Shown in pieces: positions 25,038-50,752 of a stretch of 64,000 nucleotides of DNA. Within the stretch, counting starts at the first letter, position 1. Each line of letters begins with the position of its first letter. The DNA lies in contig CALXNZ010000005.1 in NCBI GenBank assembly GCA_944389885.1, positions 1 through 64,000 of the forward strand, written 5' to 3'. The notes beneath the pieces are model-generated. The model was not told the DNA's origin and did no database searches. It saw only the letters and a program-made list of their open reading frames with translations. Both the position numbers and the translations under genes were made by a program. The DNA comes from an uncultured Opitutales bacterium. GTDB lineage: Bacteria > Verrucomicrobiota > Verrucomicrobiia > Opitutales > Intestinicryptomonadaceae.

Positions 25038-25063
25038 TCGTTTCGGATTATAGCTCTTTAACT

Positions 25064-25100
25064 GTGGGACCGGCAGGAATGCCAGTCCCATTGTTTTATT
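25064..25100 (+). terminator. hairpin terminator after the pseudopilin gene
   Basis: TGGGAC (25065-25070) pairs with GTCCCA (25085-25090); the stem continues with GGC/GCC after one mismatch. TTGTTTTATTAT follows. Confidence 0.6.
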
Positions 25101-25282
25101 ATATCGGTCTTTACAGTTGATTGATATTTTGTAGATTTTGGAAATATTTGCAGGCATTTTATTGTCCCTAATGGCGTACGCACATTGGCGAGTGTAATTT
25201 ACTCCCATATCTGGCATAAGTTTTATCGCTTACTAAATAGTGAAAAACTTTGGAAAAATGCTGAAAAATTGCAATTTGGTGA

Positions 25283-25313
25283 TTGACATCTGAGGGAATG
25301 GTTTTAGTAATAT
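25283..25313 (+). promoter_or_regulatory. candidate promoter of the first PEP-CTERM gene
   Basis: A consensus TTGACA (25283-25288) is followed after 16 bp by TAGTAATATT. The best -10 guess is TAATAT (25308-25313). The ATG follows at 25323, so the 5' leader would be only a few bases. The arrangement resembles those at 33738 and 49909. Confidence 0.5.
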
Positions 25314-25322
25314 TATGTTATC

Positions 25323-26129
25323 ATGCGTGGACTTAATATTTTATTCCCCCTCTTTTCCTTTGCGTGTACAAGCTTTTCCTTTGCGAATGATTTTGTTTCC
25401 CTATGGGAGATGGATATGTCGCAGGAGAATTTTGGATTTACCCATAAGGGAGGAAGTATAATTGCCAATGAGAGCAATACGGCAGTAGGAACAACAGCCA
25501 GTTCTACAAATGCTACGGTTGGCGTGACGCTTGACTATTCTCCAATAGGCGGATTTGAATGGGGTAAGACAATCCTAAATATTTCCGGAGAGATAGATTT
25601 TACGGCGACAGCGGGTACATCGCTCGCTGAACAATGGATTGGCTTTGGCTTCAATAACTCTCCTTCTTCCAGCGCAAATGCAGGTTATCTTTTTGCGTGG
25701 CTTTCAGGGGACGGAAACCTGAGAATAAGTGTTTCCGGTTCTGGAAATCAGCAGGGAAGCTCTCAAAATCCAGACTTATCGGTAAAGGACAATGCTTTAA
25801 AAGTTTCCTACGAAGGGACAAAACTGTATTTCGATTATATGTATGACACCACTAAAGACGATACGTTTATGGAAGTGTCATTTGTATTCCGCGATGAGAG
25901 CGGTGAGATAATTTGCAGTAAGACCGGTTTGCTCAATGCAAATGGAGTAGATATAAGTAATAATTCTTTTGCCTCTTTTACCGCGACATTTACGGGTAAT
26001 TCTACAAGCCAGATAGACGGCTGGCTTAACGATTTGAGTATATCGGGAGTGAACATTCCGGAGCCCGCGCATTATGCGTTTTTCTTCGCGGCTTTGGCTA
26101 TTATGCTGATAGGCCGCAGAAGGCGATAA
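25323..26129 (+). CDS. PEP-CTERM surface protein, tandem copy 1
   Basis: 268 residues. A signal peptide (to about FSFA) is followed by a beta-rich domain of about 220 residues beginning DFVSLWEMDMSQ, and a C-terminal sorting signal: IPEPAHYA, a hydrophobic helix and RRRR. The PEP-CTERM tag is cut by an exosortase, after which the protein is shown on the surface or released. The folded domain has the look of a concanavalin-like sandwich, but its ligand is unknown. The copy at 26148 follows after 18 bp without its own promoter. Confidence 0.85.
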   Translation: MRGLNILFPLFSFACTSFSFANDFVSLWEMDMSQENFGFTHKGGSIIANESNTAVGTTASSTNATVGVTLDYSPIGGFEWGKTILNISGEIDFTATAGTSLAEQWIGFGFNNSPSSSANAGYLFAWLSGDGNLRISVSGSGNQQGSSQNPDLSVKDNALKVSYEGTKLYFDYMYDTTKDDTFMEVSFVFRDESGEIICSKTGLLNANGVDISNNSFASFTATFTGNSTSQIDGWLNDLSISGVNIPEPAHYAFFFAALAIMLIGRRRR

Positions 26130-26898
26130 ATTTTTTTAATAGTAGTTATGAAAAGTATTACCACATCTATTCTTGCTTCTCTTGCTTGTGCAACCCTTTC
26201 GTTTGCGAATGATTTTGTTTCCCTATGGGAGATGGATATGTCGCAGGAGAATTTTGGATTTACCTATAAGGGAGAAAGTATAATTGCCAATGAGAGCAAT
26301 ACGGCAGTGGGAACAACAGCTAATGCCACAAGCTCTACAATAGGCGTGACGCTCGATTATTCTCCAATAGGCGGGTTTGAATGGGGGAAAACAATCCTCA
26401 ATGTTTCCGGAGAGATAGACTTTACGGCAACAGCGGGAACATCGCTCGTTGAACAGTGGTTCGGATTTGGCTTTAATAATTCTCCTTCTACCGGTGCCAG
26501 TGGAGGTTATCCGTTTGCGTGGGTTTCTGGAGACGGAAATTTGCGAATAAGCGTTTCCGCTTCTGGAAATCAGCAGGGAAGTTCTCAAGATCCCGATTTG
26601 TCAGTGAGGGATGATGCCTTGAGAGTTTCCTACGAAGGGACAAAACTGTATTTCGATTATACGTATGACACCACTAAAGACGATACGTTTATGGAAGTGT
26701 CATTTGTATTCCGCGATGAGAGCGGTGAGATAATTTGCAGTAAGACCGGTTTGCTCAATGCAAATGGAGTAGATATAAGTAATAATTCTTTTGCCTCTTT
26801 TACCGCGACATTTACGGGTAATTCTACAAGCCAGATAGACGGCTGGCTTAACGATTTGAGTATATCGGGAGTGAACATTCCGGAGCCCGCGCATTATG
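25391..26898 (+). repeat. tandem gene duplication with an identical 236-bp block
   Basis: Positions 25391-26076 align with 26213-26898 at a constant offset of 822 bp. From 25841 to 26076 (copy: 26663-26898) the two are identical over 236 bp; a single difference (25840/26662) separates this from a further identical 37 bp. The middle part (about 25470-25800) differs at many third positions. Similarity stops abruptly inside the codons after PEPAHY. Confidence 0.95.
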
Positions 26899-26957
26899 TA
26901 ATCGTGTCGTGTCTGGCGGCGTTGGGATTTGCGTTTATGCGCCGTAGGAGACGATAG
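26148..26957 (+). CDS. PEP-CTERM surface protein, tandem copy 2
   Basis: 269 residues, the paralogue of the preceding gene with the same order: signal peptide, FVSLWEMDMSQ domain, IPEPAHY tag, hydrophobic helix and RRRRR end. The shared region aligns without gaps at an offset of 822 bp. The signal peptides and the hydrophobic tails after PEPAHY differ, while the domain 3' part is identical. It is probably cotranscribed with copy 1 and ends in a terminator at 26975. Confidence 0.85.
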   Translation: MKSITTSILASLACATLSFANDFVSLWEMDMSQENFGFTYKGESIIANESNTAVGTTANATSSTIGVTLDYSPIGGFEWGKTILNVSGEIDFTATAGTSLVEQWFGFGFNNSPSTGASGGYPFAWVSGDGNLRISVSASGNQQGSSQDPDLSVRDDALRVSYEGTKLYFDYTYDTTKDDTFMEVSFVFRDESGEIICSKTGLLNANGVDISNNSFASFTATFTGNSTSQIDGWLNDLSISGVNIPEPAHYVIVSCLAALGFAFMRRRRR

Positions 26958-26974
26958 TTTGTTGAATTTTTGTG

Positions 26975-27006
26975 GGCCGCCTTTTGCGAGGCGGCTCTTT
27001 TTTTGG
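26975..27006 (+). terminator. rho-independent terminator after the PEP-CTERM pair
   Basis: GCCGCCT (26976-26982) pairs with AGGCGGC (26989-26995) around a 6-nt loop, followed by TCTTTTTTT. Confidence 0.85.
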
Positions 27007-27218
27007 CTATTTTAATTTCGATGACTATTCCTTAGATGCGATAAAAAATGGGAAATTTCGCAATCATGAACGGACAAAGACAGTAAGTTTCTTTATATCG
27101 CGGAAGCTTTCGATTGTGGACATTATGAATAGTAAAAGCAGAGGACTCTTGTTGTAGAGCCGGGTTAAATTTCAGTACGCGAAAAATCGAAAATCTTAAA
27201 TAAACTTTAAATATTTAC

Positions 27219-27250
27219 CAAAAAAAGGCCGGTATTTTTGAACCGACCTC
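27219..27250 (-). terminator. hairpin terminator after the six-hairpin glycosidase
   Basis: AGGCCGGT (27226-27233) pairs with ACCGACCT (27242-27249) with one mismatch. On the minus strand a T-tract (complement of 27220-27227) follows. Confidence 0.6.
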
Positions 27251-33819: not shown

Positions 33820-35394
33820 ATGTCAAAGTTGCTCGCTACTCTTGCAATTTCTTTGCCTTTTGCCTGTTTTGCGGCTGATGTGGACAATTATTGGTTGGCA
33901 GAGTCCGGGAAAACTTCCTATGGAACGGCGACTTCATGGAGTCTCGACCATATGCCCACCATATCTGAGAATGCTATAATAGACCCTCATAGCACGCCTT
34001 CGGGGACGCAAAATATAGATCCGTTTATTGTCTTCGCAACAGGAGAAACCAGCACTTATACCGCGGGAAATCTGATTATCCAAAATGTTTACAAAACCGT
34101 GGACGGAGAGGACAAGACGTTTAGCCTTCATCTGAGAATGAATTCCGGCACTCTTAATGTAAACGGAGATCTCAATAAAATAGGCGGCAAGTACGACGGA
34201 AACGTGGTTATTGGGGTAAATACTACGGCAGGAAGCCAGGCTACTGTAAAGATTGCCAATGATATAAATCTCGGCTCAATCGACGATGTAAGATATACCA
34301 CAGCAAATTATCTTTCATTTGGAGGGAACGGTTCGTCTGATTTCGTCGGTTATGGCGGCATAAAATCCCTGACTGTGGGCGGAAATATAAATATCTACGG
34401 CAACAAGGTGCTCGTGATGAATGTGGGGACAACCGGCGGAACTGTTGAATCTCCGGACGTCGTCATAGGCGGCGTGGTTGAATTGACCAGGTATAATTCG
34501 TCGGGAGCCGATATGGGGTCGCCTACTTGGTTTACAAACAGCCGCGGATATAGCGCCTATTCAAAAGATTCCTCCCAGACCATGGAGGAAAATATGAAAG
34601 TTTCCCAGGAATTGAATACGGTGATATCTCTCGGTGGATTAAAGGGAGATCAAGGATTAGTTTGTACGAGAACGAGCATTCTCGTTGACGGCGTGCAGTA
34701 TTGGGGCAAAGGAAATACTACCCTCGTGTTTACAAATAAAGCTGGCACGGAATGTTTTTACGGCGGTACTTTTAGGGATAGGAATGATATGTCGGACGGC
34801 GGAACTTCCCAAATGAGCGTAATAATGAATGGAGAGGGCACGCAATTTCTGGCTATGGACGGCAACTCCTATATAACTGGCGATATTACCGTAAACAGCG
34901 GAACCTTGCTGCTCAGAACCTCTACCGGAAGTGCCACGACGGGAAATCTCTATCTCAACGGCGGAAAAGTAAGCGGCAACGGTAATCTTAGCGAAAGCTA
35001 CAGCCGCAGGGGGAATTTTGCATTCACAAATGTTTATTGGGGCAACGGTACCCTGCAAGTGGATATAGACGCTTCGGGAGTGGAAGTATTGAATATCTTT
35101 GGAGAGTTGATTGCCGTGACGGATCTCTTGAATGTCGAATTTACAGAGGAGTCGTGGGACTCGATTGTGGACGGAAAGCAATATACTTTTATATCATTTA
35201 AAAACGGAAATTCCGGGGAAATCACAGCGGATATGTTTGCGAGCAACGCTGCCGAATTTGGGAAAATAGCGGATTTCTCGGTCACCAATAGCGGGGTGTC
35301 GGTTTCTTTTGCCGCTATTCCGGAGCCTGCTCATTGCGCGTTGTTATCGGCGTTGTTTATATTGGCGCTTGTCGCGTTTATGCGCCGCAGATAA
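33820..35394 (+). CDS. PEP-CTERM protein with autotransporter-like beta-strand repeats
   Basis: 524 residues. Signal peptide MSKLLATLAISLPFACFAA. The long middle part is rich in Gly, Asn, Thr and Ser with repeated short strands (ITVNSGTLLLR, NLYLNGGKVSGNGN), the pattern of a beta-helix like autotransporter passenger domains. The C-terminus is IPEPAHCA, a hydrophobic helix and MRRR. ATG at 33820 is chosen: AGGA stands 7 bp before it and it begins the signal peptide directly. ATG at 33802 is an alternative. Role unknown; probably displayed or shed outside the cell. Confidence 0.85.
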   Translation: MSKLLATLAISLPFACFAADVDNYWLAESGKTSYGTATSWSLDHMPTISENAIIDPHSTPSGTQNIDPFIVFATGETSTYTAGNLIIQNVYKTVDGEDKTFSLHLRMNSGTLNVNGDLNKIGGKYDGNVVIGVNTTAGSQATVKIANDINLGSIDDVRYTTANYLSFGGNGSSDFVGYGGIKSLTVGGNINIYGNKVLVMNVGTTGGTVESPDVVIGGVVELTRYNSSGADMGSPTWFTNSRGYSAYSKDSSQTMEENMKVSQELNTVISLGGLKGDQGLVCTRTSILVDGVQYWGKGNTTLVFTNKAGTECFYGGTFRDRNDMSDGGTSQMSVIMNGEGTQFLAMDGNSYITGDITVNSGTLLLRTSTGSATTGNLYLNGGKVSGNGNLSESYSRRGNFAFTNVYWGNGTLQVDIDASGVEVLNIFGELIAVTDLLNVEFTEESWDSIVDGKQYTFISFKNGNSGEITADMFASNAAEFGKIADFSVTNSGVSVSFAAIPEPAHCALLSALFILALVAFMRRR

Positions 35395-35430
35395 CTCGTT
35401 GCCTTTTTGAGCAATTCCATTCTTCAAAAT

Positions 35431-35471
35431 TCGGGCGGAATGTTTTTATAATATCCCGCCCGATATTTTTA
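35431..35471 (+). terminator. hairpin terminator after the PEP-CTERM gene
   Basis: TCGGGCGG (35431-35438) pairs with CCGCCCGA (35456-35463); TATTTTTAT follows. Confidence 0.65.
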
Positions 35472-35642
35472 TAGTCCGTGAAGCGCCTAAGTGTAAATGC
35501 CTCCAACTTTCATATTGCTCTTTGCTTCTCAAAACTCATATTGCCGCAATCTTTTGTTTCTAAAAACTGCCTTCCCAAATGGTTCCCTCCGGCCCTTCCA
35601 TTATTATAAAACGTCTTTTTAGGGTTGGTCGAATATATATGT

Positions 35643-35672
35643 AAAAAGGCTCCGATGTTTTATCGGAGCCTT
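35643..35672 (-). terminator. rho-independent terminator after pfp
   Basis: A perfect 11-bp stem AAGGCTCCGAT/ATCGGAGCCTT with loop GTTTT (35646-35672). On the minus strand the stem runs straight into TTTTTAC. Confidence 0.88.
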
Positions 35673-35717
35673 GTGGTTTTTCGTTAAAATTTTATAATGA
35701 GGCTGGCAATCAAAAGA

Positions 35718-36920
35718 CTATTTGGCCTGGCCAATGGCTTTTAATAGCTCAACAAACCACGCCTGTTTGACGTCAAACGGCTTCCCTCCCTTTATGCGCT
35801 CAAATTCACATGCGCGGAGAATGTCGTTATTGTTTTCGTCGTGGCCTATGACTCCGCCCTCGCGGCGCATTGCGCACTCCACGGCAAGATCCGTGCAGCT
35901 CTTGATAAGGCGCAGATCGTCGGCGTTGGCGGCGGCGGCCCTCGCAAAGTATCCGCTCTTTTGCACCATAACCTTTTCGGCTCCCAACATTTCGGCAAAC
36001 TGTTTGCCGAACCATTTTCCGGGATTGACCGCGTCGAGCTTAACGTGTCCGAAAGCGTCGCGGGGAACTTCTTCTCCTCTGGCTTCCATTTCGGCCACTA
36101 TTGTTTTTACTCCGGCGCCCTCGGAAATGAAGATGTTTACGCAATCATTGGCGTCCATGACTTTCTTAAGCCTTGCGGCTTCTTCTTTTATGTCGAATTC
36201 GAGCTCGGGAATGTAAATTGCGTGAATGTCGCGGCGGGCTTTGGTAAGTCCGAGGCCGTCGGCGAATTCTTGGGTGTTGAGTATTTCCCTATATTTTGCG
36301 GCGGTTGCCGCCGTCAGCCAGCCGCAGTTGCGCCCCATGACTTCATGGATAATCAACATTCTCGGGTTGGCTCCGTTTTCCCCGACGATATTTTTAAAGA
36401 ATTTAGCCCCCTCTTCGGCGGCCGTCCATGCCCCGAGGCTCTGTCTGATTGGATAGACGTCGTTATCTATTGTTTTGGGAAGGCCTATTACGGTTAGTTC
36501 GTAATTATTTTCCTTTAAGAATTTTGCCAAATCGGCGGCTGCGGTGTTAGTGTCGTCGCCCCCAATGGTATGGAGTATGTCGACCCCGTCTTTCACCAGC
36601 TGGTCGGCGGCCACTTTTTGCGGATCTTGCCCTTCTTTTACAAGGCCGCGTTTCAGGCAGTCTTTTACATTTGTGAGCTTTACGCGGGAGTTGCCTATGG
36701 GCGACCCTCCGTAGCGATGCAAGAGATGGGCTTTCTTGCGCATTTCCGGGGTCACTTTTATGCTGTCGCCCTGAAGGAGCCCCTTGTATCCGTTTACATA
36801 GCATATTATTTCTATGCTCGGATCGATTTCAGTATAGCGTTCTATAAGACCGCCAATAGCGCTTGATAGGCATGGGGCAAGTCCCCCAGCTGTGAGAATT
36901 GCAACTTTCTTGGGTTTCAT
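35718..36920 (-). CDS. pfp: 6-phosphofructokinase, pyrophosphate-dependent type
   Basis: Phosphorylates fructose 6-phosphate in glycolysis. The motif GGDDTN (about residues 119-124) has Asp where ATP enzymes have Gly, and PKTIDND carries the Lys typical of PPi enzymes, so PPi is the likely phosphate donor and the step is reversible. MGRNCGWLTA, the substrate-binding region, is present. 400 residues. It follows rlmN after 78 bp and ends at a strong terminator, so it may be the last gene of the minus-strand run from 39667. Confidence 0.92.
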   Translation of the reverse strand: MKPKKVAILTAGGLAPCLSSAIGGLIERYTEIDPSIEIICYVNGYKGLLQGDSIKVTPEMRKKAHLLHRYGGSPIGNSRVKLTNVKDCLKRGLVKEGQDPQKVAADQLVKDGVDILHTIGGDDTNTAAADLAKFLKENNYELTVIGLPKTIDNDVYPIRQSLGAWTAAEEGAKFFKNIVGENGANPRMLIIHEVMGRNCGWLTAATAAKYREILNTQEFADGLGLTKARRDIHAIYIPELEFDIKEEAARLKKVMDANDCVNIFISEGAGVKTIVAEMEARGEEVPRDAFGHVKLDAVNPGKWFGKQFAEMLGAEKVMVQKSGYFARAAAANADDLRLIKSCTDLAVECAMRREGGVIGHDENNNDILRACEFERIKGGKPFDVKQAWFVELLKAIGQAK

Positions 36921-49966: not shown

Positions 49967-50752
49967 ATGTTTGGTCTTGATAAAAAATTTCTTGTTGCGA
50001 TGTCCGCTTTTTTGGCGGCGCTTTCGGTCTCCGCATTGGATTACAGTACTTTGTGGGAATTGGATATAGGCGATAGTTCCTACGGTTATGTCAACTCTTC
50101 TAATTTGGCTACGAGCGGAGACGGATTAACGGTGGGGACGGAACTGAATACTACAGACGGTTTGGGAAATGCCGAACTTTATTGGCCAAATGTCGGGACT
50201 GTGTTTGAATGGGGCAAAACTATAATAAAAGTTTCCGGAACTCTACAATTTGAGTCATCTCCCGGAGGGTGGTTCGGGTTTTCGTTTAGCCAAAATTCTA
50301 ATGTAGATATGGCTTATAACGGCTACGGATTCTTGTTTTTTACCGGTTCTGGAAATGTAAAAGCATTCTTGGACGATAGCAAAACAGAAACATGGCTCGT
50401 GTCCGATGTAGCTATAAAAGATAAAATAGAGACCGGTAATACATTCTCCTTCGAGGTCACATACGATTCAACACAAAGCGATACTGCCCTCGTGGCAACT
50501 TTGAATATATATGATGCGGACGGCAATGCCGTATTGAATGATCCAAAGGTATTTCAGTATGTAAACGAGGGATTGAATACGGAAACTTTCGACAATATCT
50601 TGACCTCCTTTAGGGCGTCGGAAACTGAGACTTGCAACGGTTGGCTGGAATCGTTTAAAGTGGAGGCGGCAGTGATTCCAGAGCCTGCGGCACTTTCCGC
50701 TTTATTTGGGGTTGTTGCACTATTCCTTGCCGTTTATAGAAGAAGACTGTAG
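49967..50752 (+). CDS. PEP-CTERM surface protein, dispersed paralogue of the tandem pair
   Basis: 261 residues. Signal peptide to about SVSA, then YSTLWELDIGDSSYGYV and FEWGKTIIKVSG, which match SLWEMDMSQENFGF and FEWGKTILNVSG of the genes at 25323 and 26148, and the tag VIPEPAALSA with hydrophobic helix and RRRL. Overall identity is clearly lower than between the tandem pair, so it is an older copy. Ends at a strong terminator. Confidence 0.85.
   Translation: MFGLDKKFLVAMSAFLAALSVSALDYSTLWELDIGDSSYGYVNSSNLATSGDGLTVGTELNTTDGLGNAELYWPNVGTVFEWGKTIIKVSGTLQFESSPGGWFGFSFSQNSNVDMAYNGYGFLFFTGSGNVKAFLDDSKTETWLVSDVAIKDKIETGNTFSFEVTYDSTQSDTALVATLNIYDADGNAVLNDPKVFQYVNEGLNTETFDNILTSFRASETETCNGWLESFKVEAAVIPEPAALSALFGVVALFLAVYRRRL

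Follow-up and report, generated by a model that had tools for sequence, protein, structure and literature searches.

How can two neighbouring genes be identical over 236 bp and clearly diverged on either side? The question is raised by pep1 and pep2, a tandem pair of putative PEP-CTERM genes in the genome of an uncultured Opitutales bacterium of the family Intestinicryptomonadaceae (assembly GCA_944389885.1). All coordinates given without a contig name are positions in the window, the 64,000-nucleotide stretch of contig CALXNZ010000005.1 that was analysed here (positions 1 to 64,000, forward strand). The mosaic had previously been taken to point to either gene conversion or selection for variable parts. 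We read the pair as an old tandem duplicate that has undergone recent short-tract gene conversion at both ends of its mature domain, with a probability of roughly 0.87.

The gene pair and its predicted products

The genes pep1 (25323..26129, + strand, 268 aa) and pep2 (26148..26957, + strand, 269 aa) are separated by an 18 bp spacer after the pep1 stop codon, align in register when shifted by 822 positions, and share 85% amino acid identity. The first was assigned from the ORF list, weak PEP-CTERM profile matches and a genome-wide PEP-CTERM scan, the second from the ORF list and comparison with its paralogue. A predicted intrinsic terminator with a 10-bp stem and a T run, recognised by consensus match only, follows pep2 (26974..26997, + strand). 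Together with the short spacer, this terminator suggests that pep1 and pep2 form a single transcription unit. A genome-wide search recovered two copies of this gene, both full-length and open, and no silent partial copies; the true copy number could exceed two.

In the ORF translations, the N-terminus of each product is hydrophobic and closes with FANDF; it is followed by a beta-rich body, the motif IPEPAHY, a hydrophobic stretch and a terminal RRRR. In an AlphaFold2 model, helices are found at residues 5–17 and 249–268. The TIGR02595 profile scores pep1 at 16.2 bits and pep2 at 16.0 bits (cut-off 16), while the PF07589 match, at 13.9 bits, is below its cut-off of 20.7. As most of the ~31 PEP-CTERM candidates found in the genome-wide scan also score under the Pfam cut-off, the PEP-CTERM identity of the pair would lean partly on context. 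The same genome contains two exosortase matches (PF09721) above cut-off, at C2:258645-259481 and C21:22955-23722.

The model, which was built from four sequences (pLDDT 63, pTM 0.64), is a beta-sandwich. In a Foldseek search, the pep2 model came closest to legume lectins (E about 1e-6 (9e-07), probability 1.00, TM 0.45/0.51), which likens it to the L-type lectin or concanavalin A-like fold. Unlike in an established L-type lectin, the TM-scores are below 0.5 by query length, the likeness is confined to a predicted fold of low pLDDT, and a PDB sequence search returned no match; a weak DOMON match is below cut-off. The mature domain is thus tentatively described as a lectin-like beta-sandwich, an assignment kept as a lead only because model confidence is low.

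A mosaic of identical and diverged segments

The identical block was found exactly where it had been reported, at 25841-26076 and 26663-26898. It sits inside a longer near-identical block (25802..26076, + strand; partner 26624-26898), in which 1 of 275 positions differs, at 25840, with no synonymous difference. A second near-identical block is located towards the 5′-end (25380..25486, + strand; partner 26202-26308), with 2 differences in 107 positions, none of them synonymous, and an identical run of 63 bp at 25380-25442. These 5′ and 3′ blocks are regarded as probable conversion tracts 1 and 2, respectively. Between them lies a diverged middle (25487..25801, + strand; partner 26309-26623) that differs at 57 of 315 positions (18%). 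Its divergence is even, the longest identical run being 21 (P = 0.58), and its edges are clean. When the 67 mismatches of the pair were shuffled, none of 100,000 arrangements contained a run of at least 236, the longest being 141, and a 78-codon run was likewise seen in 0 of 100,000 codon shuffles.

The two ends of the genes are diverged as well. Upstream of the 5′ block, the second half of the predicted pep1 signal-peptide region (25355..25379, + strand; partner 26177-26201) differs at 7 of 25 positions, and the sequence further upstream aligns poorly. The original prediction had placed the start of the pair at 25391; the pair is real, but its homology begins earlier, with ungapped identity at the 822 offset from about 25355. 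Downstream of the 3′ block is the diverged PEP-CTERM membrane tail (26077..26126 in pep1, + strand; partner 26899-26954), which is homologous between the copies with a 6-nt difference in length. The tails had been described as differing completely after PEPAHY, which proved too strong: an alignment of the 50- and 56-nt ends needs just one or two short gaps, and its score was reached by 0 of 2000 shuffles. The tails are diverged homologues that have a hydrophobic segment, AAL and RRRR in common. Their difference is most simply explained by weak constraint and a position outside the converted tract, with no sign of a swap. A tail exchange with another PEP-CTERM gene was considered and found to be unneeded, as the tails align beyond shuffled expectation, and the PEP-CTERM genes compared included no apparent donor.

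Counted by segment, synonymous changes are distributed unevenly. Among codons encoding identical amino acids, the two flanking blocks have 0 synonymous differences in 118 and the middle has 32 in 84 (Fisher p = 9e-15). Both blocks have a dS of 0 and the middle a dS of 0.79 (95% bootstrap 0.48–1.36), while the signal peptide and tail together have a dS of 1.77 (0.66–3.2), which does not differ significantly from that of the middle (p = 0.11). A recent simple duplication of pep1 and pep2 is ruled out by this unevenness. The middle, with a dN of 0.084 and a dN/dS of about 0.1, is under purifying selection, so protein-level selection for variability is disfavoured and the second of the two earlier suggestions is not supported. 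For the signal peptide and tail, a dN/dS of about 0.26 would fit hydrophobic segments that are less tightly constrained.

The history would have begun with an old duplication of a gene encoding a surface or secreted substrate of exosortase, reaching a synonymous divergence of about 0.8 or more. Recent homologous recombination between the neighbours, in the form of a non-reciprocal and presumably RecA-dependent repair, would then have replaced two short pieces of one copy by the sequence of the other, about 107 bp where the mature domain begins and about 275 bp where it ends. The middle, the signal peptide and the membrane tail, untouched by conversion, would have kept their old divergence, and the signal peptide and tail are the most unlike, probably as constraint acts on no more than their hydrophobic and basic nature. 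We infer conversion in one or two events rather than crossing-over via an intermediate copy. If the dS of the signal peptide and tail truly exceeds that of the middle, then the middle itself may have been converted earlier.

Donor and recipient would not be distinguishable in data from this one genome, as the nearest paralogues are just 25–30% identical and no orthologue of the pair was found in 14 genus genomes, 19 family genomes or two wider genome-contig scans. The paralogue at 49967..50752 (+ strand), which shares the same architecture at 28–29% amino acid identity, serves as a distant outgroup. In an alternative that we consider quite unlikely, the duplication was recent, the identical parts are the duplicate proper, and one copy received its middle from a now absent or foreign relative of the gene. 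The data do tell which segments are alike and not which moved, and the even divergence and clean edges of the middle would fit an imported piece. However, no donor was detected in the 19 family genomes or in genome or viral collections, the viral scan yielding no orthologue, and the genome itself holds no third close copy able to supply the middle. A recent duplicate should also share its signal peptide and tail, yet these diverge most, so that at least three imports would be required.

Other tandem pairs in the genome and in relatives

Two other tandem PEP-CTERM pairs of the same genome display a similar pattern, which, together with the contrast in dS between flanks and middle, supports gene conversion, the first of the two earlier suggestions. 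The pair on contig C9 (C9:32407-33861 and about 34571-36037) contains a 73-codon identical block with 0 of 72 synonymous differences vs. 115 of 262 elsewhere. Its upstream copy (L079, G000:C9, 8572-10038) has an in-frame TGA at codon 50, just past the signal-peptide region, in place of the TGG of its partner; apart from this codon, the frame stays open. From its sequence, this copy may be a recent pseudogene, a silent donor, or the product of a sequencing error.

In the pair on contig C26, three identical runs (41, 18 and 25 codons) stand out from strongly diverged surroundings; dS is saturated in the segments that separate the first of them from the other two. The second copy of this pair is cut at the contig end (G000:C26:11329-11645) and seems to resume at C4:1-534, where at least the first 60 bases match copy one on C26 exactly before divergence sets in again. 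For the gap of about 385 bp, the simplest inference is a run of identity longer than the assembler could resolve. Contigs C26 and C4 are apparently neighbours that were split within a tandem PEP-CTERM pair and could be placed side by side. No identical block was observed in an old tandem pair on C2 (45% amino acid identity), as expected where homology is too low to recombine.

Shorter patches without synonymous differences, chosen as the longest run per pair, are found in pairs of relatives: L088, L090 and L074 of genome G001, a three-contig genome with contigs of 1.77 and 0.85 Mb, and L097 of genome G012. Synonymous differences number 0 of 30 in the patch vs. 84 of 285 in L088, 0 of 24 vs. 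82 of 242 in L097, and 0 of 18 vs. 68 of 117 in L074. The patches in L097 coincide with the signal peptide and the PEP-CTERM tail, the reverse of the arrangement in pep1 and pep2. L090 resembles a gradient more than a block, and domain-wise divergence may be partly responsible. A control search of 592 kb for tandem pairs outside the PEP-CTERM family with at least 35% identity yielded one pair (43% identity) with no block, which is too small a sample to call PEP-CTERM pairs special in conversion.

The slot adjoining the mgtE and prepilin-like genes (window 25050-27250) is also occupied by PEP-CTERM genes in relatives G006, G012 and G001 (L066, L067, L074, L075), which resemble pep1 and pep2 at most in the tail. 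In G010, a glycosidase gene directly follows mgtE. The slot is possibly an exchange spot for PEP-CTERM genes. Tandem repeats of about 72 bp, about 92% alike, are found between the PEP-CTERM genes and mgtE in L074 (G001:C2, 9117-9811). A one-contig member of the genus (G004) gave zero exosortase, PEP-CTERM and MgtE matches, although its stored sequence may be unreadable.

The recurrence of mosaics in three pairs of predicted surface proteins, and a partner copy on C9 that could be a silent donor, might be attributed to diversifying selection or to a programmed, silent-cassette-style variation that shuffles the middle. With a middle that is conserved at the protein level, two copies and no array of silent fragments, and tract positions that vary between pairs, this is very unlikely. 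Still less probable, and highly implausible in our view, is an assembly artefact, in which parts of a single gene, or of the alleles of two strains, became duplicated or collapsed during short-read assembly. The assembly comprises 27 contigs and does seem to be broken within the similar C26/C4 pair. With 18% of positions different in the middle and a still larger share in the tails, the copies are most unlikely to be alleles of one gene, however; both frames are open and under purifying selection, and the path through the 236-bp repeat (A-R-B-R-C) has a single order. A local assembly error is further made unlikely by the like mosaics of other pairs in the genome and in relatives, including weaker ones in the megabase-scale contigs of G001 (L088, L074). 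A few remaining differences within the blocks may have been smoothed out in assembly, but assembly cannot plausibly have made a dS of 0 from 0.8. That purifying selection on protein or nucleotide sequence keeps the flanking blocks identical without recombination is scarcely conceivable: constraint is plausible for blocks within the mature domain, but synonymous changes are absent from them altogether, their DNA is unconserved in paralogues, an Rfam search of the identical block gave no match, which rejects an RNA element, and the ORF list contains no antisense ORF over 25802-26076.

Comparison with known systems

Recent gene conversion at both mature-domain ends of an old duplicate would involve no new mechanism; conversion among neighbouring bacterial paralogues is a well-documented process. 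It does make whole-gene identity unsafe for dating such duplicates. Recurrent segmental conversion is also a simple possible reason for the tangled trees of PEP-CTERM families and for assembly breaks at these genes. A more far-reaching reading is that the tandem exosortase-substrate genes of the genus are a diversification system, a permanent reservoir of surface-protein segments kept in regular exchange by short-tract conversion, which homogenises the mature domain in some pairs and the signal and anchor ends in others, with broken copies perhaps acting as silent donors. We consider this unlikely.

The pilE/pilS system of Neisseria is the type of silent-cassette antigenic variation. It resembles the present case in the segmental gene conversion of surface-protein genes. 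Unlike pilE/pilS, pep1 and pep2 have no expression-site and silent-locus arrangement, no array of fragments and no sign of variability selection.

The substrates of the PEP-CTERM/exosortase (EpsH) system occur as many diverse members per genome and have undergone rapid, lineage-specific expansion (PMC1569441). With a putative signal peptide, a C-terminal PEP motif, a hydrophobic helix and a basic end, pep1 and pep2 resemble them. Among the papers covered by our literature search, none joins PEP-CTERM proteins with gene conversion. The closest parallel concerns another protein family: gene conversion between the tandem genes PE_PGRS17 and PE_PGRS18 of Mycobacterium tuberculosis was shown by comparing many strains (PMC1762029). 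Unlike these, pep1 and pep2 are known from one genome, follow another sorting route, and have no PGRS-type repeats. In both cases, neighbouring duplicates belong to a large expanded family, and linked differences move as a block between the copies.
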